Part shown: positions 24,550 to 52,717 of the stretch, piece after piece | Layout: each line of letters begins with the position of its first letter | How positions within the stretch are numbered: position 1 is the first letter of the stretch | NCBI RefSeq assembly: GCF_000004075.3 | Contig: NC_026658.2 | Coordinates: 558,001-622,000, forward strand | Direction: 5' to 3' | DNA from: Cucumis sativus | Lineage: Eukaryota > Streptophyta > Magnoliopsida > Cucurbitales > Cucurbitaceae | Length of the DNA: 64,000 nucleotides | The notes under the pieces: generated by a model | The model's input: only the letters and a program-made list of their open reading frames with translations | What the model was told of the DNA's origin: nothing | The model's database searches: none | Position numbers and translations under genes: made by a program

Positions 24550-24631
24550 GTCGCTTTGGCCGAGTGGTTAAGGCGTGTGCCTGCTAAGTACATGGGGTTT
24601 CCCCGCGAGAGTTCGAATCTCTCAGGCGACG
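24550..24631 (+). tRNA. tRNA-Ser (anticodon GCU)
   Basis: The acceptor stem GTCGCTT pairs with AGGCGAC (one G-U), with discriminator G at 24631. The D-arm contains TGGCCGAGTGGTTAAGGC, which holds the A box. The anticodon stem TGTGC/GTACA closes the loop CTGCTAA, with anticodon GCT at 24583-24585, reading AGC/AGU serine codons. A long variable arm (GGGGTTTCCCC) marks a class II tRNA. The T-arm/B box is GAGAGTTCGAATCTCTC. A T-run from 24639 serves as the Pol III terminator. CCA is not encoded, as expected for a nuclear gene. No intron. Confidence 0.97.
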
Positions 24632-26097: not shown

Positions 26098-26284
26098 CCG
26101 TTTCGCTAAAAAAACGCGGTCCGTAGGATCCCATCATCTCTACGGTCCAGATCTCTCGACCGTTGAAAATTTAAATTCTCTTTTTTCCCCCAAACCCCAA
26201 TGGTATGCTTTTTATCATCTAAAGCAAATATTGCCGTTGTATGAACCCCGATTCATTTCCCTCAAATCCCCCACCCCCCAACGG
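26098..26284 (+). promoter_or_regulatory. CSLD5 proximal promoter with four MSA-like cores
   Basis: CCGTT at 26098-26102, 26160-26164 and 26234-26238 (AACGG on the other strand) and AACGG at 26280-26284. The second, read in reverse, is TTCAACGGTCGA, close to the mitosis-specific activator consensus YCYAACGGYY bound by R1R2R3-type MYB factors. All four lie within 340 bp of the ATG. CSLD5 in Arabidopsis acts in dividing cells, so G2/M control is a reasonable inference. Confidence 0.5.
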
Positions 26285-26437: not shown

Positions 26438-29400
26438 ATGGTGAATAGGGCTTCGTCTCCATCGTCTTCTCCAGTGAAGATAACAATCTCTTCTGGAAGT
26501 AAGGCTGGCAATGGAATCATATCGATGGGGTTAACGAGTCCGATTTCGCGTGCTTCCATTTCGAATAACCCCAATTCTCCTCTCAGTGGCAGAGGGAACA
26601 GAGCCTCTAGTGGTGGAAACCGCCGATCTAGTGGTGGCAAGTTCGTTTCAATGTCGAAAGATGAGGCAGTTGAAGAAAGTAACTCTGAGTTTGTTACTTA
26701 CACTGTTCATATTCCTCCAACCCCAGATCATCAGTCCATTTCTGATTCTCAGACAAGCCTCCCTGAGGACAATGCAAATATGGGGAAGTCGCAAAGGAGC
26801 TTCATTTCTGGTACTATTTTCACTGGGGGTTTCAATTCGGTGACTCGTGGCCATGTGATTGAGTCGCTGGCGAATCCAACTGAGCAAATGAAATTAGGGC
26901 TTGTTTGTGGGATGAAGGGATGTGATGAGGCATTGGAAGGGAAGACGATGGTTCCTTGTGATTGTGGGTTTAGTATTTGTAGGGATTGTTATTTGGAGTG
27001 TGTTGGAAATGGCGGTGGCCGTTGTCCTGGCTGTAAAGAGGGTTACACAAGTGTTAGTGATGATGAAGCAGAGGACCAAGCTTTGCCATTGCCTTCAATG
27101 GCGGATGCCAAGCTTGACAAAAGGCTGTCTTTGGTGAAATCATTCAAAGCTCAAAATCACCCACCGGACTTCGATCATGCCCGATGGCTTTTTGAGACCA
27201 AGGGGACATATGGCTATGGAAATGCAGTGTGGCCAAAGGACGGCTATGGGTTTGGTTCAGGAGCAAATGGTTTCGACCATCCACCTGACTTCGGGGAGAA
27301 AAGTCGACGGCCTTTAACCCGGAAAGTCTCTGTTTCTGCTGCTATTCTCAGTCCATACAGGTAATTTTTTTTGTATGCCATTTTGAAACTTATATTTTAG
27401 AAATTTTAATTTTCTCAGCTCTAGCTTGGCGTCATTTTCGGCAGTTGTTTTCTTCCTTCAGTTTTTTGCATCTGGACATTGATCATACTGTTGTATTATG
27501 GTATTTTAAGAAATCATATCTGGTCATTTAAGATAACTGACTTTGTTATTAGTCACATATCCTTAAACATTTTAAGTATACAATCAACATTTTGTGATTG
27601 ATGTGATATCTTTGAACTTGTGTATATATTTTATTGTGTTTTGTTTCTGAAGGCTTTTGTTTCATTTTGGCAGACTGCTTATTATAATTCGTCTAGTGGC
27701 ACTTGGTTTCTTTTTAACATGGAGAGTTAGACATCCAAATCATGAAGCACTGTGGCTGTGGGGAATGTCTATTACTTGTGAGCTTTGGTTTGGATTATCA
27801 TGGCTATTAGATCAACTTCCTAAGCTCTGTCCAGTAAATAGAGCCACTGACCTCTCCGTTCTCAAAGACCGATTCGAGTCGCCAAATCTTCGAAACCCCA
27901 AGGGTCGATCTGATCTCCCAGGAATTGATGTGTTTGTCTCAACAGCGGATCCTGAGAAAGAACCTCCGCTTGTGACAGCCAACACCATCCTCTCAATCCT
28001 TGCAGTGGATTACCCCGTGGAGAAATTAGCTTGTTACTTATCAGATGATGGTGGTTCTCTCTTGACATTTGAAGCACTTGCTGAGACAGCCAGCTTTGCT
28101 AGAATATGGGTTCCATTCTGTCGAAAGCACGGCATCGAACCAAGAAATCCAGAGGCCTATTTTGGACAGAAGCGTGACTTTCTTAAGAACAAAGTGAGAC
28201 TTGACTTCGTTAGAGAGAGGAGAAAGGTGAAGAGAGAGTACGACGAATTTAAGGTAAGGATTAATTCATTGCCGGAGTCTATAAGGAGAAGGTCAGATGC
28301 TTACAATGCCCACGAAGAAGTCAGAGCCAAAATGAAACAAAGGGAAATGGGGGGCAATCCTTCAGAGGAAATCAAGATCTCAAAGGCAACTTGGATGTCA
28401 GATGGCTCTTACTGGCCTGGAACTTGGGTTTTAGGTGAAGCCGATCACTCTAGAGGGGATCATGCTGGTATTATTCAGGTACGTTGTTTCTTTTTCCTTT
28501 TTTCTTTTTTGAACCATTTGTAAAATCTTGAAAAGAAGACTAAGAAATTTTGTTTTATCTTTTAACTGCAGGCTATGCTAGCTCCTTCTAATACAGAACC
28601 TGTTTATGGTTCAATCGCAGATGGGAAGAATTTGATTGACACAACAGATGTGGACATCAGGTTGCCAATGCTAGTTTATGTGTCTCGTGAGAAGCGGCCG
28701 GGGTATGATCACAACAAGAAAGCCGGAGCAATGAATGCTCTTGTTCGAACAAGTGCAATCATGTCAAATGGACCCTTCATTCTCAATCTTGACTGTGACC
28801 ACTATATATACAACTCCTTGGCTTTGAGGGAGGGGATGTGTTTTATGCTTGACAGAGGCGGTGATCGGATTTGTTATGTTCAGTTTCCGCAGAGATTCGA
28901 GGGTATTGACCCAAACGATCGGTATGCAAATCATAACACTGTATTTTTTGATGTGAGCATGAGGGCTCTTGATGGGTTGCAGGGGCCTATGTATGTGGGG
29001 ACTGGCTGTATTTTCAGGAGGACAGCTCTATATGGATTTAGTCCTCCAAGAGCTACAGAGCATCATGGCTGGTTTGGTACTCAAAAAACTAAGTTGTTAC
29101 TAAGAAAATCGAGGGTATCAAAGAAGGAAGATGATGAGATGGCGGTTCCAATCAACCAGCGTGGTCAAAATTGTGATGATGACGATGCGGACATTGAGTC
29201 CTTGCTTTTGCCAAAGAGATTTGGAAATTCTACTTCTCTGGCTGCATCAATTCCGGTTGCAGAGTTCCAAGGAAGATTGCTTCAAGAATTGCAAACGAAG
29301 GGTAATCAAGGTCGACCGGCTGGTTCTCTTGCTGTGCCCCGGGAACCTTTAGATGCCGCCACTGTTGCTGAGGCCATTAGTGTTATTTCCTGCTTCTATG

Positions 29401-30353
29401 AAGACAAGACAGAGTGGGGCAAAAGAGTTGGATGGATCTATGGTTCTGTAACAGAGGACGTGGTAACTGGATACAGAATGCATAACAGAGGTTGGAGATC
29501 AGTTTACTGTGTTACTAAGCGTGATGCTTTTCGAGGCACAGCACCAATCAACCTAACTGATAGGCTTCACCAAGTACTCCGATGGGCGACGGGGTCGGTT
29601 GAGATATTTTTCTCAAGGAACAATGCCTTGTTTGCAACACGTAGAATGAAGTTCTTGCAAAGAGTAGCATACTTCAATGTTGGGATGTATCCCTTCACAT
29701 CTTTCTTCCTCCTTGTCTATTGCTTCTTGCCTGCCGTTTCTCTATTTTCAGGACAATTCATAGTCCAATCCCTAAGTGTAACATTCCTAATCTTCCTACT
29801 TGCCATCACCATCACGTTATGCTTACTCGCCATCCTTGAGATCAAGTGGTCAGGCATTACCATCCACGATTGGTGGCGCAATGAGCAATTCTGGTTGATT
29901 GGAGGAACAAGTGCCCACCCGGCTGCCGTGCTACAAGGCCTGTTGAAGGTCATTGCTGGAGTAGACATCTCATTCACATTGACGTCCAAATCAGCCACAC
30001 CAGAGGACGGGGACGACGAATTCGCGGACCTATACGTGGTGAAATGGAGCTTTCTGATGATCCCTCCCATCACAATCATGCTGGTGAACATGATTGCGAT
30101 TGCAGTAGGAGTTGCTAGGACATTGTACAGTCCATTTCCAGAATGGAGCAAGCTTGTGGGAGGGGTGTTCTTCAGCTTCTGGGTTTTGTGCCATCTCTAC
30201 CCCTTCGCTAAAGGGCTGATGGGACGTCGTGGCCGAGTCCCAACAATAGTCTTTGTTTGGTCCGGACTTCTATCAATCATAATTTCGTTGCTGTGGGTCT
30301 ACATTAGTCCTCCTCCTGGAGTACAGGATCATATGAAGTTTCAATTCCCTTGA
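26438..30353 (+). CDS. CSLD5: Cellulose synthase-like D5 (full-length)
   Basis: A processive GT2 glycan synthase of the CSLD family, active in cell-plate and tip-growth wall deposition in Golgi or plasma membrane. Exons 26438-27360, 27674-28478 and 28572-30353 give 3,510 nt, or 1,169 residues, normal for CSLD. The first ATG in frame is 26438; the open frame runs three codons further upstream but only to a GTG. Seen in order: a Ser/Pro-rich N-terminus with [17 protein letters not shown] CSLD text; a Cys-rich RING-like finger from CGMKGC to CPGC at about 155-205; two N-terminal membrane spans after the first junction; SDD with D432/D433; DCD at 650-652; TED with D872; QVLRW at 910-914; and about six C-terminal membrane spans. 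All catalytic motifs are intact. N-terminal wording ([31 protein letters not shown]) matches CSLD5 rather than CSLD1-4. It heads a tandem cluster with two shorter derivatives. Confidence 0.97.
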
Positions 30354-30950: not shown

Positions 30951-33851
30951 TATAAAGGTTTATTTGAAATCTATAATTAGTATACATATATAAAATGAAT
31001 CACAGTCCTTTTCTTAAAAGAAAGAGATGACAAGTAGAGAAATAAAAAAATACCTAATCCAATCATAAAATATTTTAAATTTGAGCTGCTGCATGTAACA
31101 TATGAGTTAGAAGGACAATGGATCAAAATGAATCGAAGATAAAGTAACCTCTTCAGTTATTCATAAAACATCAATTTACCATTTAGCTTTTAATTAAAAA
31201 TTAAAACCATATATTATTAAGAATAATTATTTTATTTGACAGTCTAACCATCCAAATATAAAAACCACATCACCATTTTGTTAAAGAGTTAATAAAACGT
31301 TAACAACATGGATCAAAATAGATTCGTTTTAAAAGATTATGAACTAAAAAAGACATTTGAAAAGCGACAAAAGTATAATACAATGTTTAGATACCAAAAT
31401 AAGATTTAAACATTTTGTAAATATTAAAAGATTTATCTTAAATCTACTAGAATTAGGATTAGGATATAAGATTTTTCTAATCCAACTTATGATCAAATCT
31501 TATCTTATCCTATTTTATTTTCATTTTATAACACAAATTTCAACCTATAAAAATAAATTGAAATTGTAGTTTTGATGAACTTTTGTTTTGATAGAAGAAT
31601 CAAATGAAAATAAAATTCAAATTAAACACTACCAACAAAAAGATATCAAAATTGGAACAATATTATACCCTAAACCAATGTGTCTTTTGCCTACAAAATT
31701 GGCTTTATTCTTCATATGGAAAGAATAAAACAACAATTTTTATTCTCTTTTAGATTTGACCAATTGAATTTTGATTTTAGTGGATTATTAATCGATCTCA
31801 TTTTATTATCGTATTTTAATGTCTTCACATAATCTTAATTACATTTCAATCTTCCAAACAACACCTTCAAATTAAGATCACCTATTTATATTGTGAATTA
31901 AAGACCATGTCTTTCAAAGAAATATCCCCTTTTATAACCCTATGTATTTTTCGAGGTCGATCCTAATTCTATTTTCTAAACTATTTTTTGTATTTGAACT
32001 AAAAAGCTAATTTTTTTTTTATCAACTTAAAGTATATCAATTTATATCCATTTTCTTTTTTTAATTTGTCTATTCTAACCATTTATTTTATTAATCTTAT
32101 ATTTATAAAAGTCTACGCACGTAATATTCCTTTCTAATTTCCAAAAAGTGATCTTAAATAAACAAAATTAAGTTCATACATTTTGAACAACTCCTATATT
32201 AAACTTTCGAGTCAATCGATTATTAGAAAAAGAAGAATAATTCGATCTTTTGAGTTTGTTGAATACCTAATTGGTCATAACATAAAACCACGACCAATTG
32301 ACTTTATTTATTTATTTTTTCACTTTTACCATTTCCTTCGTTCCCATTCAATTAAGGCTCAATATTTTTAATATTTGATTATAACTTCTACTTTAATATT
32401 TATATTTGTTCTATTTTATTTTTAATTTTATCTAAGAAGTACATGTATTTTTAAAACAAAAGTTAAAATTTTAAAAATAACCATTATACTGAATTGGTAC
32501 ATTAGATAGTATATATAAAAGTATTAACTAAACTTTTTGTTTTTCATTTTGTCCTTCTTCTTTGGTTTTATTGTAATTTGAAATTAATTATTAGTAAATA
32601 CTTTGGTATTAATAATTTTAATTTTTTTTCCTCGCTTAATTATGTCATTAAATTTTTTGTGAAACCATTCACATTCGCCAGTTTCCACCGTTCCCTTTCT
32701 TTCGTACTAACTATTTTATATATCTCTTCCAACCTTTTAAATTCTTTTCCCTTTTTAAATCTTTGAATATAAATATCATATTCCTTTTCTTTTCTATTCA
32801 CGTTTCCAAGTTTCACAATAAAAAGTTAAGAGCCAACAAAAAATCAGATCTATGTCTTTTATTCTCTTCTAATTTTGTTTTCTTATTCTTATCTTTTTCA
32901 CTATTTTTTTATATAAAACTATGTTTACGTATATTCTTTATTTATAGACTTTAGTGATGTCGAGGAGCAAGCAATCAACTCAATAAAAAGATTGAGAAAT
33001 TGATAAAGATTCAAAAATGAAGAATGTAAAAGTGAAAGACTAAAGAGAAAACAGTCAGAAGTATCATTTTCAAAAATAATAAAATAAACTCAAAATATTT
33101 ATAAACATAACAAAATTTTGGATTCTAACTATGATAAACACCGATAAATTTTTATTAATATCTATTAATATCACTGATAGAAGTATATCAGTGTCATCAA
33201 TGATAGTCATTGATAGAATATGAAATTTTGCTATATTTTGTCAAATTTATCATTTTTGACAATTCGCGTAGTGGACAAGTTAGATGTCAAAGGAGAAAGC
33301 AAAAATAAAAAGGTCACATCTTAGCTATTGGAATGAGTTATTTAGGCATAGTTGTTCTCTTGTTCCATATATATGTATGAGAAAAAATGTAATGAAAAAC
33401 ATAGATTAAAGCTAAGTTTTTATTAAATGAAGATCAAAGTTTATACATGCAAAAAAAAAAAGAGTAATAAAAAACACAAATTATAATAGTCTCCACCTCA
33501 AACACATCTTATAATAATACATACTATAATAACCTAAACTTTAATACGTTCCAAATTAACCAAGCCCATATTATTATAACACATTCCATTAAAGATTGAA
33601 TGAATGAAAGTAAGTAGATTCCCTATTCAATTAAGGTCCATTTTTAATATTTTATTATAACTTCTACTTTAAGGTTTATTTTTGTTTTAACTCTTAATCA
33701 ATTTTAATCGTATTTTTAAAAAATGACAAAGTTAAATTTTAAAAAATATATATGATCGTTATACCAAAAGTGAATTTAAAGTAAATGAATCAGTACATGC
33801 ATTTATATACTTAAAAAGCTAAGTGATTTGCATACTTAAAATTTACTATTA
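30951..33851. other. Non-coding left part of duplication copy A
   Basis: AT-rich, with no exon recognised. About 1.1 kb (32.2-33.35 kb) is specific to copy A and contains the TATCA/TGATAG repeat. The rest aligns by eye with 39.4-41.77 kb of copy B. Confidence 0.5.
33118..33250. repeat. Degenerate TATCA/TGATAG-type interspersed repeat
   Basis: Repeated words CACTGATAGAAG, ATATCAGTG, CATCAATGATAGTCATTGATAG and then GAAATTTTGCTATATTTTGT. This pattern, with short inverted TATCA/TGATA words next to a GCTATATTTGT tail, is a type I associate with cucurbit genomes. It falls in the segment of copy A missing from copy B, so it may mark the insertion. Boundaries are approximate. Confidence 0.5.
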
Positions 33852-34320
33852 TTGTTGTTATGTGTATCTTTTGAATCTGCTTCTATGCATGTTGTTGCTC
33901 TAACAAATATTGGATACATGTTCATCAAACGTTGGATGAAGACACGCTGGTCAAACCCCATCTCTTCTCACTCTAATTTCTGGAAGAAAATGTTGCTGCT
34001 TACTGTAAGAGAATCTATGAACAAAGTCCAGAAAATGAATCTGATCCTCTCAACTTCATTTGAACATATTTTTTCTCAATATAAATATGTGCAGCAAAAG
34101 AACAAGAAGATGAAACAATAAGAACCAAATAAGAGGAGAGAGATTATAAGTTGAAATCTCCATTGTTCAGTAAATTTGGTTTTTTTGCTTTGCTGTGTTT
34201 GATGTTATTTATTTGATATTATCAGAATTTCATACTGTTCCTGGTGAGTTCATGAACATCTCATTCTCTTCCAACTTCACACCACATGTACATATTTATC
34301 AAAAGAAACAATTATAAAAA
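33852..34320 (+). other. Near-identical island, copy A (unknown, possibly exon or gene relic)
   Basis: Almost identical to 41775-42238: about one mismatch over the 300 bp from 33921 to 34220, apart from an 11-nt insertion here near 33908. One frame gives an 89-codon ORF, but the copy B version starts elsewhere because of the indel. A different frame reads VHQTLDEDTLVKPHLF and FLEENVAAYCKRIYEQ with stops between, more protein-like but broken. TATAAATATGTGCAG near 34094 looks like a splice acceptor. No family recognised. It could be a decayed gene end, a non-coding exon or a conserved regulatory block. Confidence 0.4.
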
Positions 34321-35327
34321 CTATTATGTATATATATATCTTTTATGATTTGTATACTTCTGTATTTTACTGATTCCCTTCCTTTTACTCGATGTTAAAC
34401 TTATCAAAACATGGAAATTTTGATAAAAATATAGTTCAATAATACTATGATCACTACGTGTTTTTTGTATTATTATAATTATATTTTTTATTTAGAAATT
34501 TCATGTTCAATACTAAAAGACTTATTGGTGTTTCTATTAATAAACACCATAAAAAAACTATTAATAAAATATAAAATATATTATATTTTCTAATTAATTT
34601 GATTCAATTTGTTATATTTCAAACTATTAATTTTTTTTTTTTTTTTTTTACTTTTTCCTATATCACTTGAAGTGAATACAATTTTGGTCACTGAAAATTA
34701 GTTTATGATTCATCCAAGAATTTGAAGTTGAATTTTATATATATTTCATATTTCATTTGTTTTTAAATAGGCAGGTCTTTGGGTTTTTTAAACCAGATAA
34801 GTTAGGTAATTAATGTTTGTATTTAATTTGCCTTTGTCAAAAAGTTTGGTTACATTATAAATTATAAATTTAGACTAGAATTATCTAATTTGATTGTAAA
34901 CTTGTGCGACTTTTAAATTTAATTATTCATCTTTAATACTTTATTTTTGTTCAATTTAAGACTTTAGAGCAAGTACATAAATTTTCAATTTTATAAGTAA
35001 TAAGTGATAATTGGTTGATGTAACACACAAGACTAAAATTTTGTATCTAATAATTAAAGTCTGGACCTTACAATTTAAAATTGTATGACTAGTTATATAG
35101 GAATGTTTTCACCCACTTATTCAAGTTATCTTCCTTCCTAGAGATCAAAGGTTCCAATAATCCTCTTTTGACCTATATTTTTTTTGTTTCCATGGGGTTT
35201 GCTTTGGTCTACTGACATTTGCAGTCACCTAAATAAATAATCCATAATTGTGAATTAATGTGAATACAATTTATACATTAATATTAGAAACAAAGCTTCT
35301 AGTGGCAACAACAACAATTTTGATGCA
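34321..35327 (+). other. Upstream region of the second CSLD gene
   Basis: AT-rich, with no exon. The last 60 bp before the ATG still align with CSLD5 coding sequence (NKASSGN-like, 35289-35327), but an in-frame TAA at 35256-35258 precedes them. The original N-terminus and promoter are therefore gone, and the copy must use other upstream DNA for expression. Confidence 0.5.
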
Positions 35328-38300
35328 ATGTCGAAAGACCAGGCGGTTGAAGACAATGCATATATGGAAAAGCTGCAAATTTCTAATGCTATTTTCACTG
35401 GAGGTTTCAATACGGTGACTCGTATGCACTTGATCAAATTGGATACTAACAATGGTGGAGGTCTTTGTACTGGATGTGAACTGAGTTACACACATGTTAG
35501 TGATGATGAAGCAGAGAACCAAGATTTGTCATTGCTTTCAATGGCGGATGATTTTGAGACCAAGGACACTGCTGAGTTTGGCTCAGAGGTGAAGAAAACC
35601 CGACGACCTTTAGCTTGGAAACTCTCTGTTTCTCCTACCATTCTAATCTCATACAGGTAATAAAAGAAATGTAATAAAAGAAATGTTATTGTGTTCGGTT
35701 TCTAAAGGCTTTCTGTATTTCTTTTGGCAGATTGCTTACTATAATTCGTCTACTGCTACTTGGTTTCTATCTAACATGGACACTTACACATCCAAATCAT
35801 GAATCAATGTGGCTGTGGAGAATTTCTATTACTTGTGAGCTCTGGTTTGCATTCTCATGGCTATTAGAACAACTTCCAAGGCTCTACTTTGTAAACAGAG
35901 GCACTGACGTATCTGCTCTCAAGGATCGATTCGAGTCCCCAAATCTTCAAAACCCCAAGGGTCAATTCGATCTCCCAGGAATCGATGTGTTTGTAACGAC
36001 AGCGGATCCTGAAAAAGAACCTCTACTTGTGACAGCCAACACCATTCTCTCAATCCTTGCTGTGGATTACCCGGTTGAAAAGCTGGCTTGTTACTTATCA
36101 GATGATGCCGGTTCTCTCCTGACATTTGAATCACTTGTTGACACAGTTAAGTTTGCAAGAATATGGGTTCCATTTTGTCGAAAGCACGGAATCGAGCCAA
36201 GGAGTCCTGAGGCTTATTTCAAACAAAAGCATGACTTTCTTAAAAATAAAGTGAGGCTTGACTTTGCTGGAGATCGGAGAAGAGTGAAGAGGGAGTATGA
36301 TGAATTTAAGGTAAGAATTAATTCATTGCCAGAGACTATAAAGAGAAGATCAGATGCTTACAATGCCAAGGAAGAACTCAAAGCCAAAATGAATCCATCG
36401 GAAATGGGGGAAAATTCTTTAAACGAAATAAAGATCTCAAAGGCAACTTGGATGTCTGATGGCTCCTACTGGCCAGGGACTTGGGAAGTTCCAGGTGAAG
36501 ATGATCACTCTAGAGGGGACCATGTTGGTATAATTCATGTAAGTTGTTTTTTTTTTTTTTTTTTTTTGAATCATTTATGTAATCTCTTGAAGAAGACAAA
36601 TATGTTTTGTTTTTATCTTTTAACTACAGGTTATGCTAGCCTCTTCTGATGCAAAACCAGTTTATGGTTCAAACACAAATGGGAAGAACTTGATTGACAC
36701 AACAGATGTGGATATTAGATTGCCAATGCTAGTTTACATGTCTCGTGAGAAGCGACCAGGGTACTGTCACAACAAGAAAGCCGGAGCGGTGAATTCTCTT
36801 CTTCGAACCAGTGCAATCATGTCGAATGGACCGTTCATTCTCACTCTTGATTGTGACCACTACATATATAATTCCTTGGCTCTAAGAGAGGGGATGTGTT
36901 TTATGCTTGACAAGGGCGGCGATCGAGTTTGTTATGTCCAATTTCCGCAAAGGTATGATGGAATCGATCCGGACGATCTGTATGCAAATCATAATACTCT
37001 ATTTCTTGATGTAAACTTGAGGGCTCTTGATGGGTTACAAGGCCCTTGTTATATAGGGACTTGTTGCATTTTTAGGAGGATAGCTCTCTATGGATTTAGT
37101 CCTGCTAGAGTAACAGAGCACCATGGTTTGTTTGGTACTCGAAAAACTAAGTTGTTACTAAGAAAGCAAACGATATCAAAGAAGGAAGATGATGAGAGGG
37201 CCACTCGAATCAATCAATGTCCTTTAGATTGTAAAGATGATGGAGACACTGGCTCCTTACCTCTGACAAAGAGATTTGGAAACTCTACTTCTCTGGCTGC
37301 ATCAATTACAACTATGGAGTTTCAAGGAACGTTGCTTCAAGAACTCGAAAGTAAGGGCAATCAAGGTCGTCCGACTGATTCTCTTACTATGCCTCAGGAA
37401 CCTTTAGACGTTGCCACTGTTGCTAAGGCCATTAGTGTTATTTCCTGCGTCTATGAGGACAATACAGAGTGGGGTAAAAGAGTGGGATGGATCTATGACT
37501 ATTTGACAGAAGATGTGGTAACCGGCTACAAAATGCACGACAGAGGTTGGAGATCAGTGTATTGTATTAGCAAGTACGACGCTTTTCGAGGCATGGCGCC
37601 AATCAACCTAACTGATAGGCTATACCAAGTGCTCCAGTGGGCAACAGCGTCTGTTGAGTTGTTCTTCTCTAGGAACAACTCCGTGTTCGCAACGGGTAGA
37701 ATGAAGTTCTTGCAGAAAGTAGGCTACTTTAACATTGCAGTTTATCCATTCACATCCTTCTTCATTCTTGTCGACTGCTTTTTGCCTGCGGTTACTCTGT
37801 TTTCAGGACAGTTAGTGGTCCAGTCATTTGTAATATTATTAACCTTCAATCTTGTTGATTCCATCATATTATACTTACTCGCCATTCTAGAGACCAAGTG
37901 GTCAAGCATGACGATCACCAACAGATGGCGAGAGAAGCAAGCCTTTGTAATTTGGGCGACAAGCTCCTATCTGGCTGCTGTGCTACAAGGCTTGTTGAAG
38001 TTCATAGCTGGAGTAAACATCTCATACAGATTGACACCCAAACTAGCCACAGCAAAGGATGGAGATGACGAATTTGCGGAGTTATATGTGGTGAAGTGGA
38101 CCTTTCTGATGATTCTTCCCATCACAATCATGGTGGTGAACACAATTGCCATTGCAGTGGGAATTGCAAGAGCATTGTATAGTCCACATCCAGAATGGAG
38201 CAAGCTTGTATGGGGAATGTTCTACAGCTTTTGGGTTCTATGTCATTTCCACCCTTTCGCCAAAGGGCTGATAGGACGTCGCAGCCAAACGTTGAATTTA

Positions 38301-38405
38301 TTCCATGTTTGGTCCGGACTTGTGTCGATCATAGTTTTGTTTTTGGGCATCTACATGGCATCTCCTTCAGGGGCACAAAATCATATGAAGTTTCAATTCC
38401 CTTAA
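35328..38405 (+). CDS. Shortened CSLD5-like glycan synthase, copy A
   Basis: Exons 35328-35656, 35731-36538 and 36630-38405 total 2,913 nt, or 970 residues, in frame with no stops and the same intron positions as CSLD5. The start ATG corresponds to an internal methionine of CSLD5 (around residue 71); an in-frame stop lies upstream. Against CSLD5 it lacks the first 70 or so residues, the PPTPDHQ segment, and all of the RING-like finger except a final CTGC. SDD (D234/D235), DCD (453-455) and TED (D674) are kept, but QxxRW is QVLQW, with Q715 in place of Arg. Also changed: DDGG to DDAG, DRYAN to DLYAN, GTGC to GTCC and EHHGW to EHHGL. Membrane spans are retained. The second donor is CAT|GTAAGT, changing IIQ to IIH. 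The open frame suggests a made protein; catalytic ability is doubtful. A young pseudogene remains possible. Confidence 0.9.
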
Positions 38406-41400
38406 GCGAAAGATCAGAATTCATACGTATATGTGGACTTATCATTGTTCATAAAGGCACGTGTGAAAGGGTAATAATAACAATAATATATATATAGATA
38501 ATAATCCACAACATTTCAATCAGAATGAAAAAAATAGAACACTTACTTTTATCTTCGAAGTTTGAGTAGCCAAAATTGATGTCTTTTGTTAATAAAGTAT
38601 TATTGTTTATACTCATTTGCTACAAAGCACAAATACTTCATATGAGAACAAAATTCATATCAAATATCTATAATTATTAATTTTCCAACATATATCTAAC
38701 ATTTGACATATTAGTTTTTATTTTGGCTTTAAAAAAAAAAACTAAAAAAAAATAATAAACTCATTATATTTTTTTCAACCCAAATCTTGTAATCTAACCT
38801 TCATTTTCACATATAAAGTTTGAGAGTCTTTACAAAATCTAAGCCACTTGGATATCTTCAACAACTGAATGGAAGAAATTCATTTACATTCATACTTCTC
38901 CCCTCTAATCATCTTCCTCTTCAATGATCTACTTGAGTCCTTTTCTCATTTCATTCAATATCTCTGATGTGGATTTGCATTCAATAACTATTGCATTTCC
39001 ATCTCTCATGTTGATTTGTGTATTGCATTTTGTACCATTATCACTCACTTGGACATTTGTGACTTTATATGCATTTAATGAGTTACATTTTCGTAAGGTT
39101 TATCGATTCGTAATAAAAATGAGTGTAATTGCAATCAAATTTCATTGACAAATCAATTGTTATAAACCACGATCGCAAATGTAATTGAATTATTTTGGAT
39201 CGTGTTTACCCAAAACTATTAATTTTGTCAAATCTATAACTATCATTTTGGTTTGGATTATCGTTAACGGTAATTAACTATAACCTAAGCGATATTTTCT
39301 TCCATGTGATTGGTCAAAAATCCATACCCCATATAAAACCCTAGGCAGAACAAGGGTACAAAATTCCGAATTGACTCAGTCTAGGGCATGTAGTGGCCAT
39401 GGCCAAATTTGCCATACAAAGGCTTATTTGAATTATATAATAAGTACTACACATATATACTCCAAAATAAATTCTACAAAATTGTTGATAAATATTCTTA
39501 CAATAAATCACAATCTTTAAGAAAGAATGGAGGAAGAGGAGAAAAAAAAAAACACCTAGAGGAATCCTAACATATGGGTTTAGAAGGACAATGCATCAAA
39601 ATGATGATACCAAAATATTGAAGATAAAGTGATATTTTCAGTTTTCAATAAAACATCAATTTATCATTTAATCTTTAATTAAAAATTAAAATCATAGATT
39701 ATTAAGAATAATTATCTTATTTGATAACCTAGTTGTTCAAATATAAAAACAACACCATTTTGTTACAAGGCTAATGAAATATTAACCATGGATCAAAATA
39801 GACTCGTTTTAAAAGTTTATGAACTAAAAAAATCTTTTAAAAAGTGACCAAATTAGAACAAGATACAAAGTTTAGAAACCAAAATAAGATTTAAGCATTT
39901 TATAAAGAATTTTTTATGTAGGTATGATTAAATCTTATCTTATTCTATTTTATCCTCATTTTATAACACAAATCCCAAAAGGTTAGACAATTAATTTATT
40001 AATAAAATATAGAGTTAAATTGAAATTGTCGTCAAAATTATTAGGATTTTGATTAACTTTTATTTTAGAATCAAATGAAAATAAAATTCAAATAAAACCC
40101 TACAACAAAAAAGATATCAAAATTGGAACAATATTATATTTCTCAAATTTTTTAACATAAATTAACTAAACCAATTTATCTTTTAAAAAAATTGCATGAA
40201 GTGACAGAAACATTTAAAAATAAATAGCTAATGGCACCAATTTTTAAATATTGCAAAGATGAAAAAATTAGTAATATCAGAGGCTATCAGACGGTAATCA
40301 TAAGCTTACCATAATTTAAAAAATGTTGTGACATGAGTTCTATTATCATAATTTTATTTTGCTATATTTGTAGAAGTCCTTTCATCTTTTGCCTACAAAA
40401 TTCTATTTGTTCTTCCAAGGAAAAGAATAAAATAACAATTTTTATTCTCTCTTAAATTTGACCAATGAATTTGAATTTGAGTGGATTAAACCATTCTCAT
40501 TTTATTCTCGAATTGACACATTTTAATATTCCTCCCATAATCTTAATTACATTTCAATCTTCAAAATCAATCTATATTAAATTTAAGATCGACCTATCCG
40601 TGTAGTAAATTAAAGGGTTTGTTGAAATTTCTTTTACAATTCATGTTTCATGTTTCACCATTTATTTTATTCATCTTATATTTAGAAAAGTCTACACACT
40701 TAGGAATTGATTCATCGCTAACTTTCAAAAAGTGATCTTAATAAACAAAATTAAGTAACAACTCCAACTTCCACAAACTGAAATAATGAAATTTGGATCA
40801 ATTCAAAACTTTGTTAATCTATTTTCATGTATAACAATTGAATTAATATATAGTCTTTATGTAATCGTGACTATATAAAACATTCATTATCTAACAAATA
40901 TTAAATTTATTCTTACATGCTAGCTTAAACTTTTAGATTTAATCAATAATTTAAAATGATATCAAAACATAAGGTTGGTTTAACAGGGTTTAGGGTTTAG
41001 GCATAGTTGTTCTCTTGTTCCATATATATGTACGAGAAAAAAAAAGTAATGAAAAACATAGATTAAAGTTAAATGTAGATCAAATTTAAGAAAACAATGT
41101 ATATGTCAGTCCTACGTATGATAAAAAAGAGTAAGTAAAAAACTAAAGATTGAAGCTAAATTTATTAAATCAACATCGTAATTAACAAGATTTAATATAA
41201 TCAATCCAAAAAAAAGTATTTCATATATACCGGCAAAAAAAAGAGTAATGAAAAACACATATTATAATAGTCTTAATCTCAAACACATCTTATAATAATA
41301 CATACTATAATATTGTACATCCCAAACACATACTATATTATAATAACCTAGACTTTAATACTTTGCAAATTAACCAAATCCAGGTGATTATAGTACCAGA

Positions 41401-41774
41401 CTAGCTATTATAACTCACTCTTTGTCCCAAACGTTCCATTAAACCTTGAATGAAAGCGTAAGTAGATGTCTATTCGATTAAAACTCCTTTTTAATACCAA
41501 GTAGATTCGATCAAGGCACCTTTTAAGTAGATTCCTATCTAAGGTCTCTTTTTAATATTTTATTATAACTTCTACTTTAAGATTTATTTTTGTTCTCTTT
41601 TATCTTTTAACTCTTAATCAATTTTAATTCAAGAAACAAGTATATTTAAAAAATGATAAGTTAAATTTTAAAAAATATATATCATCCTTATACGGAAAGT
41701 GAATTTAAAGGAAATGAATCAACACATCAATTTATATACTTAAAAAGCTGAGCCATTTGCATACTCAAAATTTA
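38406..41774. other. Intergenic region between CSLD copy A and the island of copy B
   Basis: 38406 to about 39400 is unrelated to the CSLD5 3' UTR and holds no recognisable gene; 38924-39148 is a chance ORF. From 39410 the sequence aligns with the left part of duplication copy A. AT-rich throughout. Confidence 0.5.
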
Positions 41775-42238
41775 TTATTATTGTTGTTATGTGTATCTTT
41801 TGAATCTGCTTCTATACATGTTGTTGCTCTAACAAATGTTCATCAAACGCTGGATGAAGACACGCTGGTCAAACCCCATCTCTTCTCACTCTAATTTCTG
41901 GAAGAAAATGTTGCTGCTTACTGTAAGAGAATCTATGAACAAAGTCCAGAAAATGAATCTGATCCTCTCAACTTCATTTGAACATATTTTTTCTCAATAT
42001 AAATATGTGCAGCAAAAGAACAAGAAGATGAAACAATAAGAACCAAATAAGAGGAGAGAGATTATAAGTTGAAATCTCCATTGTTCAGTAAATTTGGTTT
42101 TTTTGCTTTGCTGTGTTTGATGTTATTTATTTGATATTATCAGAATTTCAGAGTGTTCCCGGTGAGTTCATGAACATCTCATTCTCTTCCAACTTCACAC
42201 CACATATACATATTAATCAAAAGAAACAACTATAAAAA
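41775..42238 (+). other. Near-identical island, copy B
   Basis: Partner of 33852-34320. In this copy VSFESASI, VVALTNVHQTLDEDTLVKP and HLF follow in one frame before a stop, so B may be nearer the ancestral reading. Its 67-codon ORF in another frame (from 41836) is the same as the end of the copy A ORF. It lies about 1.0-1.5 kb upstream of the CSLD copy, as in A. Confidence 0.4.
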
Positions 42239-43248
42239 CTATAAATTTGAATTACTAAACAAACATTTTCATTATTATTATATTTATATACACGTGTACA
42301 TATCTTTTTATGATTTGTATACTTTTGTATTTTACTGGTTCTCTTCTCATGTCGATGTTAAACTTACATAAACGTGAAAATTTTGATGGAAATTTAATAA
42401 TATTCTATGATCACTACGTGGTTTTTGTCTTATTATAGTTATATATTTTCATTTAATAATTTCATGTTCAAGATTAAAAGATTTTGATCGATGTTTCTAT
42501 CAATTTCACCAATAGACACTGTCAGAAGATTATTAATAAAATCTAAAATTTGTTGTATTTTCTAAATAGTTTGGTTGATTATATTTCGAGCTATTAAAGT
42601 TTTTTTCCTATATTATTTGGAGTGAATCCAATTTTCGTCACTAAAATTTAGTTTATGATTCATGCAAGAATTTGAATTTAGTTTATGATTCATGCAAGAA
42701 TTTGAATTTGAATTTTATATATTTTTATTTTTTCATTTATCTTTTGTTTTTAAATAGGTAGGTCTTTGGGTTTTCAAAGTTATTTAATTCGTTTCTAATG
42801 CAACTTTTAAATTTAATTATTCATGTTTAATACTTTATTTACGTTCAATTTAAAACTATATGTGTACATAAATTTTCATTTTTATAACTAATTGGTGATA
42901 ATTGGTTGACACATTTGATGTGATTAAAATTTTGTATCTAATAATTAAAGTGTCGACCTTACAATATAAAAATTTATGACTAGTTATATAGGAATGTTTC
43001 CACCCACTAATTCAGGTTATCTTTCTTCCTAGAGATCAAATGTTCCAATAATCCTCTCCTCATATTTGTTATACTAAAATAACAAAAAATATAGGTCTTT
43101 TTTTTTCTTTCCATGAACTTTGCTTTGGTCTACTAACGTTTGTAGTCACCTAAATAAATAATCCATAATTATCAATTAATGTGAATACAATTTATACATT
43201 AATATTAGAAACAAAGCTTCTAGTGGCAACAACAAGAAGTTTGATGCA
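42239..43248 (+). other. Upstream region of the third CSLD gene
   Basis: Aligns with 34321-35327. It contains a doubled unit near 42648-42690. The last 40 bp before the ATG is relic CSLD5 coding sequence (NKASSGNNKKFDA), without an upstream in-frame ATG. No separate gene. Confidence 0.5.
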
Positions 43249-46200
43249 ATGTCGAAAGACCAGGCGGTTGAAGACAGTGCAAATATGGGAAAGCTGCAGA
43301 TTTCTAATGCTATTTTCACTGGAGGTTTCAATACGGTGACTCGTATGCACTTGATCAAATTGGATACTAACAATGGTGGAGGTCTTTGTTCTGACTGTGA
43401 ACAGAGTTACACACATGTTAGTGATGATGAAGCAGAGGACCAAGCTTTGTCATTGCTTTCAATGGCGGACGATTTTGAGACCAAGGATAGCAATGGGTTT
43501 GGCTCAGAGGTGAAGAATAATGATGTTAAGCACCAACCTAACTTTGGGGAGAAAACTCGACGATCTTTAACCTCGAAGCTCCCTGTTTCTCCTACCATTC
43601 TAATCCCATACAGGTAATAAACAATAATGTTATTCCTCTAGCTTTGAACTTGTGAAATTTGATTTGTTGTGTTCGAATTCTAAAGGCTTTCTGTATTTCT
43701 TTTGGCAGATTGCTTACTATAGTTCGTACACTGCTACTTGGTTTCTATCTAACATGGATAGTTACACATCCAAATGATGAATCAATGTGGTTGTGGAGAA
43801 TTTTTAATACTTGTGAGCTCTGGTTGGCATTGTCATGGCTATTAGAACAACTTCCAAGGCTCTGCTTAATAAACAGAAGCACTGACGTATCTGCTCTAAA
43901 GGATCGATTCGAGTCCCCAAATCTTCAAAACCCCAAGGGTCGATCTGATCTCCCAGGAATCGATGTGTTTGTAACGACAGCGGATCCTGAAAAAGAACCT
44001 CTACTTGTGACAGCCAACACCATTCTCTCAATCCTTGCTGTGGATTACCCGGTTGAAAAATTGGCTTGTTACTTATCAGACGATGCCGGTTCTCTCCTGA
44101 CATTTGAAGCACTTTCTGACACAGCCAACTTTGCAAGAATATGGGTTCCATTCTGTCGAAAGCACGAAATCGAGCCGAGGAGTCCTGAGGCCTATTTCAA
44201 ACAAAAGCATGACTTTCTTAAAAATAAAGTGAGGCTTGACTTCGCTGGAGATCGGAGAAGAGTGAAGAGGGAGTATGATGAATTTAAGGTAAGGATTAAT
44301 TCATTGCCAGAGACTATAAAGAGAAGATCAGGTGCTTACAATTCCACCAAAGAACTCAAAACCAAAATGAATCCATCGGAAATGGGCGAAGTTTCTTTAA
44401 ACGAAATAAAGATCCCAAAGGCAACTTGGATGTCCGATGGCTCCTACTGGCCAGGAACTTGGGAAGATCCAGGTGAAAATGATCACTCTAGAGGAGATCA
44501 TGTTGGTATAATTCAGGTAAGTTGTTTGTTTCTTGGAATCATTTGTGTAATTTCTTGAAGAAGGCTAAGATGTTTTGTTTTATCTTTTAACTATAGGTTA
44601 TACTAGCCTCTTCTGATGCAAAACCAGTTTATGGTTCAAACAAAAATGGGAAGAACTTGATTGACACAACAAACGTGGATATTAGATTGCCAATGCTAGT
44701 TTACATGTCTCGTGAGAAGCGACCAGGGTACTGTCACAATAAGAAAGCTGGAGCAATGAATGCTCTTCTTCGTACCAGTGCAATAATGTCGAATGGACTC
44801 TTCATTCTCAATCTTGATTGTGACCACTACATATATAATTCATTGGCTCTAAGAGAGGGGATGTGTTTTATGCTTGACAAGGGCGGCGATCGAGTTTGTT
44901 ATGTCCAATTTCCACAAAGGTTCGATGGAATCGATCCGGACGATCTGTATGCAAATCATAATACTCTATTTCTGAATGTAAACATGAGGGCTCTTGATGG
45001 GATACAAGGCCCTTATTATATAGGGACTTGTTGCATTTTTAGGAGGATAGCTCTCTATGGATTTAGTCCTGCTAGAGTAACAGAGCACCATGGTTTGTTT
45101 GGTACTAAAAAAACTAAGTTGTTACGAAGAAAGCTCACGGTATCAAAGAAGGAAGACGATGAGATGGGCACTCAAATCAATGGATATACTTTAGATTGTG
45201 ACGATGCTGATGATGCAGACACTGGCTCCTTACCTCTGCCAAAGAGATTTGGAAACTCTACTTCTCTGGCTTCATCAATTACAGTTGTGGAGTTTCAAGG
45301 AACATTGCTTCAAGAATTTGATAGTAAGGACAATAGAGGTCGCATGACTAATTCTCTTACTGCGCCTCAAGAACAACCTTTAGACGTTGCCACCATTGCT
45401 AAGGCCATTAGTGCTATTTCTTGCGTCTATGAGGACAATACAGAATGGGGTAAAAGAGTAGGATGGATATATGGCAGTTTGACAGAAGATGTGGTAACCG
45501 GCTACAAAATGCACAATAGAGGTTGGAGATCAGTGTATTGTATTACCAAGCATGACGCTTTTCGAGGCACAGCGCCAATCAACCTAACTGATAGGCTTCA
45601 TCAAGTGCTCCAGTGGGCAACAGGGTCTATTGAGTTGTTCTTCTCTAGGAACAACTCCTTGTTCGCAACGCGTCGAATGAAATTCTTGCAAAAACTAAAC
45701 TACTTTAACATTTTATTGTATCCATTCGCATCCTTCTTCATTCTTGTCTACTGCTTCTTGCCTGCAATTTCTCTGTTTTCAAGACAGTTCGTGGTCCAGT
45801 CATTTGTAACATTATTAACCTTCAATCTTGTTGATTCCATCACATTATACTTACTCGTCATTATAGAGATCAAGTGGTCAGGCATGACGATCGCCAACTG
45901 GTGGCGAGAGAAGCAAGTCTGTGTAATTTGGGCGACAAGCTCCTTTCCGGTTGCTGTGCTACAAGGCTTGGTGAAGTTCATAACGGGAGTAGACATCTCA
46001 CACACATTAACACCCAAACTAGCCACACTAAAGGATGGAGATGACGAATTTGCTGACTTATACGTGGTGAAGTGGAGCTTTATGATGATTCCTCCCATCA
46101 CAATCATGTTGGTGAACACAATTGCCATTGCAGTGGGAATTGCAAGAGCATTATATAGTCCACATCCAGAATGGAGCAAGCTTGTAGGGGGAGTGTCCTA

Positions 46201-46381
46201 CAGCTTCTGGGTTCTATGCCATTTCCACCCTTTCGCCAAAGGGCTGATGGGACGTCGCAGCCGAGCGTTGAATTTATTCTATGTTTGGTCCGGACTTGTG
46301 TCGATCATAGTGTTGTTGATGGGAATCTACATTACATCTGATTCTAGGGCACAAAATCATATGAAGTTTCAATTCCCTTAA
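43249..46381 (+). CDS. Shortened CSLD5-like glycan synthase, copy B
   Basis: Exons 43249-43613, 43709-44516 and 44597-46381 total 2,958 nt, or 985 residues, in frame. The N-terminal loss and finger deletion match copy A (only CSDC remains), but it keeps a PNFGEKTRR segment like CSLD5's [10 protein letters not shown] that copy A has lost, so B is slightly closer to the ancestor. SDD (D246/D247), DCD (465-467) and TED (D689) are present; QxxRW is QVLQW, with Q730 for Arg. DDAG, DLYAN, GTCC and EHHGL are shared with copy A. The exon 3 start reads VILASS, so an ATG search on that exon alone misses its first 20 codons. Intron 1 is 95 bp against 313 bp in CSLD5. The 3' UTR matches CSLD5. Family and membrane topology are clear; enzymatic activity is uncertain. 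Confidence 0.9.
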
Positions 46382-51249: not shown

Positions 51250-52353
51250 TCACCCGGAATATCCGTACAAGTCGTATGGTGACCATAGAGCGTCCAGTGG
51301 ACATGGTTCTTTGGAGTCCAACCTCGACCATGGCTTCCCACTGCCGGACCAATGCAAGAGGCTAGTCGGACCCGGGTGGAGGTCACGGCAACTGCCTCTG
51401 ACATTATCACCTCCTAAACCATGCTGGTTCCACCGGTGCTCGATGGTCGCCACGTTACCGGCGAAAACCAGTAAGAACGGGGGAAGTGACCCAAGTTCAT
51501 AGATGCGATTACTCTTCTGAAGTTTCATCCACCATTCAATCTTCTCCGTATACCCACCATTCCTCCATTTAACCAAGTCTATGACCATAACGCCCGTGTT
51601 GAAGTAACAGGGCTTTCTTCCAGCAAATGTGCCGAAAAATCTCTCATCAGACCAGAAACGTGTTGTGAAATACTTGCTGAAATTGGCATGACAGTACTCA
51701 GGAGCCCCGATTGTCCACTCACCCAAATTCGTCGTCCATAGCTTCCGGATATCATCCACCACAATAAGATCAGAATCCAGGTAAATTACCTTCTTCACAC
51801 AAGACTCGAGCAACCCAGCCAAGTAATTTCTAGCATAATTAAGCGGCTGCTCCAGCGCTTGCCTCACCGAAGTGGAGATCAGATTCCTAACAATCTCCGG
51901 ATCAAAGTAGTACACTTTGAAATTCATCTGAGGGAAGGTAGATCGAACGAAGTCCTCAAGACTGGTATCCGAAACAAGGAAATGAAAGAAAACACTCTCT
52001 GGACACAGCGAGTTTCGAAGAATCGAATTGACAGCCGCAACTGAGCCACGAAGGTACTCCACATCGAGTGTAATGGCAACATGTACCAAATTCGGATCAC
52101 ACACACCAAACTTCCCAGAAAACCTCGAGTCACCGCCTCCACATTGACCAGCATTGCGAAATGTAGATGCCTTTCGGAAAGAGAATCTATTCAACGATCT
52201 GGAAGAGGCAGTATCAACAGGCAAACGAAGATAAAAATCGAGATGAGAGGATCGAATAGCTTCGGCCGGAGGAAATGATTGTAAAGCCGGAGCAAGCACA
52301 ATCATGACCATTGCGGCGGAAAAAAGCCCCGATAATTTCATCAACCAAATCAT
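51250..52353 (-). CDS. Galacturonosyltransferase-like protein (GATL, GT8)
   Basis: A GT8 glycosyltransferase of the GATL family, implicated in pectin and/or xylan synthesis in the Golgi. Single exon, 367 residues, typical of these intron-poor genes (about 350-390). Seen: an N-terminal hydrophobic stretch (residues 8-24, signal or anchor), VHVAITLD at the start of the catalytic domain (90-97), the metal-binding DSD at 193-195 in [14 protein letters not shown] (216-221), FNTGVMV (251-257) and the C-terminal HWSGSGKPW at 334-342. These GT8 hallmarks are all intact. The start ATG at 52353 is the first in frame: the frame stays open 90 codons upstream but has no ATG there. GATL lacks the long GAUT N-terminal region. 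The exact GATL number cannot be set without a tree. Its upstream region is rich in GA/CT and GAA repeats. Confidence 0.95.
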
Positions 52354-52623
52354 ATTCACGCTATAAACCCCTTTTTTCTTTTTCTTCTTCCACTTGAAAC
52401 CAAATCGACGAACAAAAATGGAGAAAAAACACGTTCGGAGGAACGCTAGGGTTCCTTTAAAGTCCTCCAGAACTCTCGAGAAATCAATACATGGAGAAAA
52501 ACAACAACAAATATTAAGCCCTAAACCGAGATGGAATCGATATTTGTCCTCCCTAGAAGAGCGTATGAAAGCGAAAAAGTATGCCGTGGGAACAAAGCAA
52601 GCAGAGAGAGGATAAAAAGGCAA

Positions 52624-52663
52624 AAGAAGAAGAAGAAGAAGAAGAAGAAGAAGAAGAAGAAGA
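52624..52663. repeat. (AAG)n microsatellite
   Basis: About 13 AAG units, interrupted only at the ends. Confidence 0.9.
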
Positions 52664-52717
52664 TAAGTTTGTAGAGGTGAGCATTGAAGAAGAATCGGAC
52701 CTCAAAACAAAGGCGAG

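Follow-up and report, generated by a model that had tools for sequence, protein, structure and literature searches.

The closest described relatives of the genes reported here belong to the CSLD family. CSLD3 is reported as a beta-1,4-glucan synthase in work cited in PMC8331140; the same article presents CSLDs as proteins thought to act as multimers and describes N-terminal mutant alleles of Lotus CSLD1 that complement alleles with catalytic-region defects. According to PMC8306620, a RING is present, among CSLs, only in CslD, and the arginine of the QxxRW motif coordinates UDP. In other GT2 enzymes, alanine at NodC Arg-280 or Chs2 Arg-604 is reported to inactivate (PMC4132801), and R381 of the hyaluronan synthase XlHAS1 is described as touching the pyrophosphate, with neither alanine nor lysine tolerated in its place (PMC11750622). 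The CesA3 allele ixr1-4, an arginine-to-lysine change in the motif, was recovered as an isoxaben-resistant mutant plant (PMC8306620). Since that mutant was recovered, the position of the motif arginine is not wholly untouchable in plants.

Our literature search covered titles and abstracts, cucurbit CSLD and CSLD pseudogene topics included. Among these titles and abstracts, we recognised no CESA/CSL pseudoenzyme and no description of the two cucumber genes presented below or of any QxxQW CSLD; a supplementary tree of PMC8306620, outside this scope, includes cucumber proteins.

A tandem CSLD cluster in cucumber

The window, by which we mean the whole 64-kb stretch of Cucumis sativus DNA that was analysed, contains three related genes arranged head to tail, here called A, B and C.

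26438-30353, + strand: A, a complete CSLD5-like parent gene with a RING zinc finger and QVLRW at residues 910-914; exons 26438-27360, 27674-28478 and 28572-30353; 1169 aa
35328-38405, + strand: B, a RING-less copy; exons 35328-35656, 35731-36538 and 36630-38405; 970 aa
43249-46381, + strand: C, a RING-less copy; exons 43249-43613, 43709-44516 and 44597-46381; 985 aa

The name CSLD5 for A is a putative label taken from an earlier note on this DNA; A itself is a CSLD-type gene. B and C share the three-exon structure of A, the introns of all three genes are GT-AG, and none of the three has an internal stop. Pfam recovers the Cellulose_synt domain (PF03552) with E=0 in A and C and 5.2e-300 in B, and the catalytic D,D,D (the aspartates of DD, DCD and TED) is intact in both copies. 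By eye, an out-of-frame ATG can be seen at 35323-35325, 5 bases ahead of the presumed start of B, and it could lower translation of B. In the surroundings, an Rfam search over 24000-50000 returned one tRNA only, outside the cluster (24550-24631, + strand; RF00005, 57.8 bits), and an open frame at 51250-52701 on the - strand encodes a Glyco_transf_8 domain (E 2e-54), a further glycosyltransferase close to the cluster.

In a tree of seven proteins, all from this genome and with no named reference CSLD among them, B and C group together as sister to A with 100/100 support. Over the core, identity to A is 75.3% for B (647/859) and 75.9% for C (653/860). Sequence downstream of A (31096-32173) resembles that downstream of B (39568-40756) at 70-85%, which suggests that 3' flank was part of what was duplicated. 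The genome holds another tandem CSLD pair, L039 and L040 (G000:C2:24371000-24387000), whose core proteins are 91.9% identical with an NG86 omega of 0.03, a sign of tight constraint.

Two features of the copies that do not appear in the earlier note concern their beginnings. The zf-RING_4 domain found in A (5.5e-12) is absent from B and C at E<=0.001 in Pfam: in the first exon of each, the beginning of A's N-terminus is missing together with three or more additional stretches, one of which holds the RING, and every gap leaves the frame intact. We interpret the absence as a loss, because the cysteine-rich stretch is present in L039. The 5' regions of the copies also differ from that of A; the features compared are listed here.

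33611-35327, + strand: 5' region of B, matching the 5' region of C (41524-43248) at 87% of 1614 aligned bases
26098-26284, strand not assigned: four AACGG/CCGTT cores upstream of A, possible MYB3R sites

The 5' region shared by B and C showed no match to the sequence upstream of A, and a genome search with the B region (40 of 68 candidates scored) found no single-copy source, only C and short repeats. Within it, a block of about 400 bases (33849-34248 upstream of B, approximately 41767-42166 upstream of C) reaches 98.5-98.9% identity, with 300 bases matching fully, while its flanks are 80-90% identical between B and C; gene conversion, constraint or assembly could each account for it. In the 1.5 kb upstream of A, we counted five AACGG/CCGTT cores (1.49 expected) vs none upstream of B (0.85 expected) or C (0.97 expected); the full-length MYB3R consensus had no match upstream of any of the three. 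Since PMC6161211 reports MYB3R-type sites in the CSLD5 promoter and the cores are absent from the 1.5 kb ahead of either copy, the two genes may have escaped mitotic control, a suggestion drawn from small counts.

The QxxRW arginine and neighbouring motifs

The motif that distinguishes the copies from their parent lies in the third exon of each gene.

29571-29585, + strand: QVLRW of A, the reference state, arginine codon CGA
37626-37640, + strand: QVLQW of B, Q715, codon CAG
45602-45616, + strand: QVLQW of C, Q730, codon CAG

The CGA of A differs from the CAG of the copies by two or more base changes, and the tryptophan of the motif is retained in both copies. As the tree makes B and C sisters (support 100/100), the replacement is most simply taken as a single event, and for the same reason we rejected counting QxxQW as two changes.

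To place the change among its relatives, we compared it with loci found by searching the genome (226.6 Mb) with the third exon of A, a search that gave at least 88 matches (74 of 115 candidates scored) and covers CESA and the nearer CSL genes, with distant CSLA/CSLC-type genes outside it. The 30 regions beyond A yielded 31 readable motifs, so that the comparison comprised 32 motifs: five from CSLD (A and L039-L042), eight from CESA (L043-L050) and 19 from 18 CSL loci (L051-L068), L057 contributing two. Arginine occupies the position in all 32, A included, and glutamine was found in B and C only. Of the 32, 30 have the form QxxRW, and the remaining two, L059 and L060, have HxxRA. The arginine is also present in four PDB alignments (CslF6 and three CesA). 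L059 (G000:C2:23079500-23085500) and L060 (G000:C2:23096000-23101000), both CSL genes on contig C2, read HHKRA in one case and HQKRA in the other, a mirror image of B and C in which the Q and W are gone and the R is retained.

B and C lack a residue required for catalysis, the requirement being taken from other GT2 enzymes (NodC, Chs2 and HAS). Because glutamine cannot supply the charge of the arginine, both proteins are probably crippled.

Four further variants, DDAG, DLYAN, GTCC and EHHGL, are common to B and C. The same genome has DDAG in L058 and L067, DLYGN in L061 and GTCF in L066, the DDGG site being unreadable in many of the CSL loci compared, and CslF6 (PDB 8dqk) carries DLYAN and DDSG; the exact GTCC was seen in no CSL examined besides B and C. 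We therefore rejected DDAG and DLYAN as signs of lost function, given the same or close variants in other CSLs here and in CslF6. On all points of sequence, the earlier note was accurate: its coordinates and residue numbers for B and C, their open exons and intact aspartates, the QVLRW (CGA) of A against QVLQW (CAG) at Q715 and Q730, and the four variants in both copies were all found as it gave them. Its proposal of altered activity fared less evenly, as the arginine change is serious, but variants of the DDAG and DLYAN type are by themselves no sign of lost activity.

Relaxed selection and retained frames

To estimate selection on the copies, we fitted a purpose-written branch codon model with a fixed tree to 843 codons of A, B, C, L039 and L040; 18 of the 861 core codons of A fell in gapped columns and were dropped, and L041 and L042 were left out. 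Omega was 0.666 on the B/C lineage vs 0.022 elsewhere (2dlnL 380.7), and fixing the B/C value at 1 was rejected (2dlnL 6.33, p=0.012). Selection on B and C is strongly relaxed. Taking the tips only, omega was 0.745 (p=0.074 vs 1), with 0.91 for B (p=0.75) and 0.62 for C (p=0.077) as single tips. NG86 agrees, with an omega of 0.645 between B and C vs 0.030 between L039 and L040. The outgroup is saturated (dS about 6), which leaves the stem omega unreliable and the synonymous split between the A branch and the B/C stem unreadable: the stem value ranged from 0.23 to 0.67 depending on the model, one of which gave A an omega of 1.3 on a dS of 0.005. Because the stem value shifts with the model, our conclusions draw on the tips and on how far the lineage departs from the background.

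The relaxation is also visible in individual residues. The five other CSLDs agree at 513 core positions, of which 123 are altered in B, C or both (64 changes shared, 13 positions changed differently, 26 in B alone and 20 in C alone); this count omits positions gapped in any of the five, as does the 45-position count below, and also the last residues of L041. In the membrane parts, both copies have altered residues on which the five other CSLDs agree, W1017 and W1151 among them.

The reading frames, in turn, have been kept. Neither copy has a stop, vs 5.2-7.0 expected per copy if the tips were neutral, and in simulations the chance of finding none was 0.004 (B) and 0.002 (C). Comparing the exons of B and C, we found three indels in 2913 aligned bases, none of them off-frame, vs 20 in 1614 aligned bases of upstream noncoding sequence, where 12 of the 20 were not multiples of three. 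As a rough bound, the share of the period after the B/C split during which B went unconstrained is about 0.19 or less if indel rates in exons and upstream sequence are assumed equal; stops alone set the bound at 0.56. With no stops and no frameshifts, we rejected the possibility that B and C are long-dead pseudogenes.

The remaining constraint is unevenly distributed. Regional omega was estimated on A, B and C alone, with region borders drawn from motifs; all p values in this paragraph, Fisher tests included, are nominal values from several tests. The tips gave 0.80 for the whole (p=0.17), 0.57 for the GT domain (p=0.006), 0.27 for the D2 block (p=0.004), 0.47 for D1/P-CR (p=0.034) and 0.47 for D3 (p=0.086), vs 1.24 for TM3-8 (p=0.45), 1.95 for the class-specific region (CSR; p=0.17) and 2.5 for TM1-2 (p=0.19). 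Synonymous and nonsynonymous codon differences between B and C numbered 28 and 41 in the GT core vs 19 and 84 in the rest (Fisher p=0.0017). The cytosolic GT domain of the copies is more constrained than their membrane parts, and the channel region is evolving without detectable constraint. A similar comparison used 45 positions conserved not only in CSLD and CESA but also in 90% or more of the remaining readable CSLs. There, C has changed at 2 of the 45 vs 95 of 468 other CSLD-invariant positions (Fisher p=0.008), and B at 5 of 45 vs 98 of 468, which is not significantly fewer (p=0.17).

Readings of B and C and known systems

We give about an even chance to the reading in which B and C are catalytically crippled, CSLD-derived pseudo-synthases, membrane proteins that kept the cytosolic fold and perhaps act as complex partners, their frames maintained by selection until recently or longer. 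One tandem duplicate of the CSLD5-like A would be the ancestor of both: it would have gained a different 5' region and lost its N-terminal RING and the UDP pyrophosphate-binding arginine of QxxRW, and a later second duplication of this altered copy would have produced B and C. Their proteins would be made but would have little or no glucan synthase activity, judging by other GT2 enzymes, and selection would have maintained the cytosolic domain for a non-catalytic task, such as joining or titrating CSLD oligomers. Support comes from the arginine in 32 of 32 other motifs and its necessity in NodC, Chs2 and XlHAS1, a B/C omega far above the background yet below 1 (p=0.012), the mere 2 of 45 core changes in C, the RING loss, the open frames, the constraint on the GT domain and the multimers proposed for CSLDs, which, with the Lotus complementation, make a non-catalytic partner acting through its cytosolic domain possible. 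The same reading is weakened by tip omegas of 0.745 (p=0.07) and, on A, B and C, 0.80 (p=0.17), by the 5 of 45 core positions changed in B (p=0.17), by the membrane residues altered in both copies and by the arginine-to-lysine change of ixr1-4. With the RING gone, any assembly would presumably be altered. A more specific form, in which the copies are natural pseudo-synthases selected for a non-catalytic cytosolic role, for instance tuning CSLD oligomers at times when the mitotically expressed parent gene is off, appears unlikely to us. The earlier note had suggested a duplicated CSLD lineage that kept its fold but may have lost or changed activity, for example as a complex partner. The open exons, the GT domain and the arginine change bear out the first part, but a partner role through the usual N-terminus is less likely now that the RING and most of that N-terminus are seen to be lost.

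A close rival, possible though on balance somewhat unlikely, is that both copies are pseudogenes at the start of their decay, functional until recently and now without constraint or a role as proteins. A tip omega of 0.745 that does not fall significantly short of 1, omegas of 1 or more in the membrane and class-specific parts, the loss of RING, parental 5' region and arginine alike, and changes at 123 of 513 CSLD-invariant positions are all what such decay would leave. It is harder to reconcile with no stops where 5.2-7.0 are expected, no off-frame coding indel, a period without constraint of at most 0.19 (0.56 from stops alone) of the time since the split for B, and a GT domain at 0.57 on the tips (p=0.006). 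The dN/dS check that the earlier note had proposed for recognising pseudogenes divides along the same line: omega on the tips (0.745) could not be told from 1 (p=0.07), but exons free of stops and frameshifts argue against old pseudogenes. We think it quite improbable that the copies are instead catalytically active with an altered donor, acceptor or product and form a new CSLD-derived branch parallel to the RING-less CslF. The retained D,D,D and tryptophan of QxxRW fit such enzymes, as do the DLYAN and altered residue after the catalytic DD in common with CslF6, the constrained GT domain and the 43 of 45 superfamily-conserved positions kept by C. However, the arginine stands in all 32 other motifs and the four PDB alignments, its replacement abolishes NodC, Chs2 and HAS activity, and the channel region shows no detectable constraint. 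Finally, the shared glutamine could be an artefact of assembly or gene conversion rather than an old substitution, and the 98.5-98.9% identical block with its 80-90% flanks does point to conversion or assembly trouble nearby; yet the exon around the motif is only about 91% identical between B and C, many other codons set both apart from A, and next to the motif each copy carries differences of its own, so we hold this to be very improbable.

If the proteins are made, the pseudo-synthase reading would offer a CSLD fold naturally separated from its chemistry and from the N-terminal RING, and the intact parent, some 8 kb off, would serve as an internal control. It would then be testable whether non-catalytic subunits can be part of CSLD or CESA oligomers or regulate them; the intragenic complementation described for Lotus CSLD1 in PMC8331140 raises this question. 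If they are not made, the locus would show a synthase gene at an early stage of decay, its frame outlasting its chemistry.

Several known systems resemble the copies in part. Natural departures from the motif are reported in rice, RxxRW in OsCSLA10 and LxxRW in OsCSLE2 (PMC3022907), but there the first residue is altered and the arginine stays, the reverse of B and C. Cotton GrCSLD1 is drawn without zf-RING_4 in PMC5504666, a RING-less CSLD, but unlike B and C it is reported there with a conserved QXXRW; the same article calls AtCSLD6 an apparent pseudogene, a precedent for a decaying CSLD. Pseudoenzymes in general share with B and C a kept fold and the loss of a required catalytic residue, the inactivity of B and C being predicted. 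CslF6, a mixed-linkage glucan synthase (PDB 8dqk), is the top solved structure for C (E 1.2e-240) and shares DLYAN, but it has QVLRW, and B and C are each most closely related to the other copy and to A. To the CSLD family, the copies are tied by the three-exon structure of A, the D,D,D, about 75% core identity and their position as sister to A; they differ from it in lacking the RING and the QxxRW arginine, in their 5' region and in an omega about 30-fold higher.
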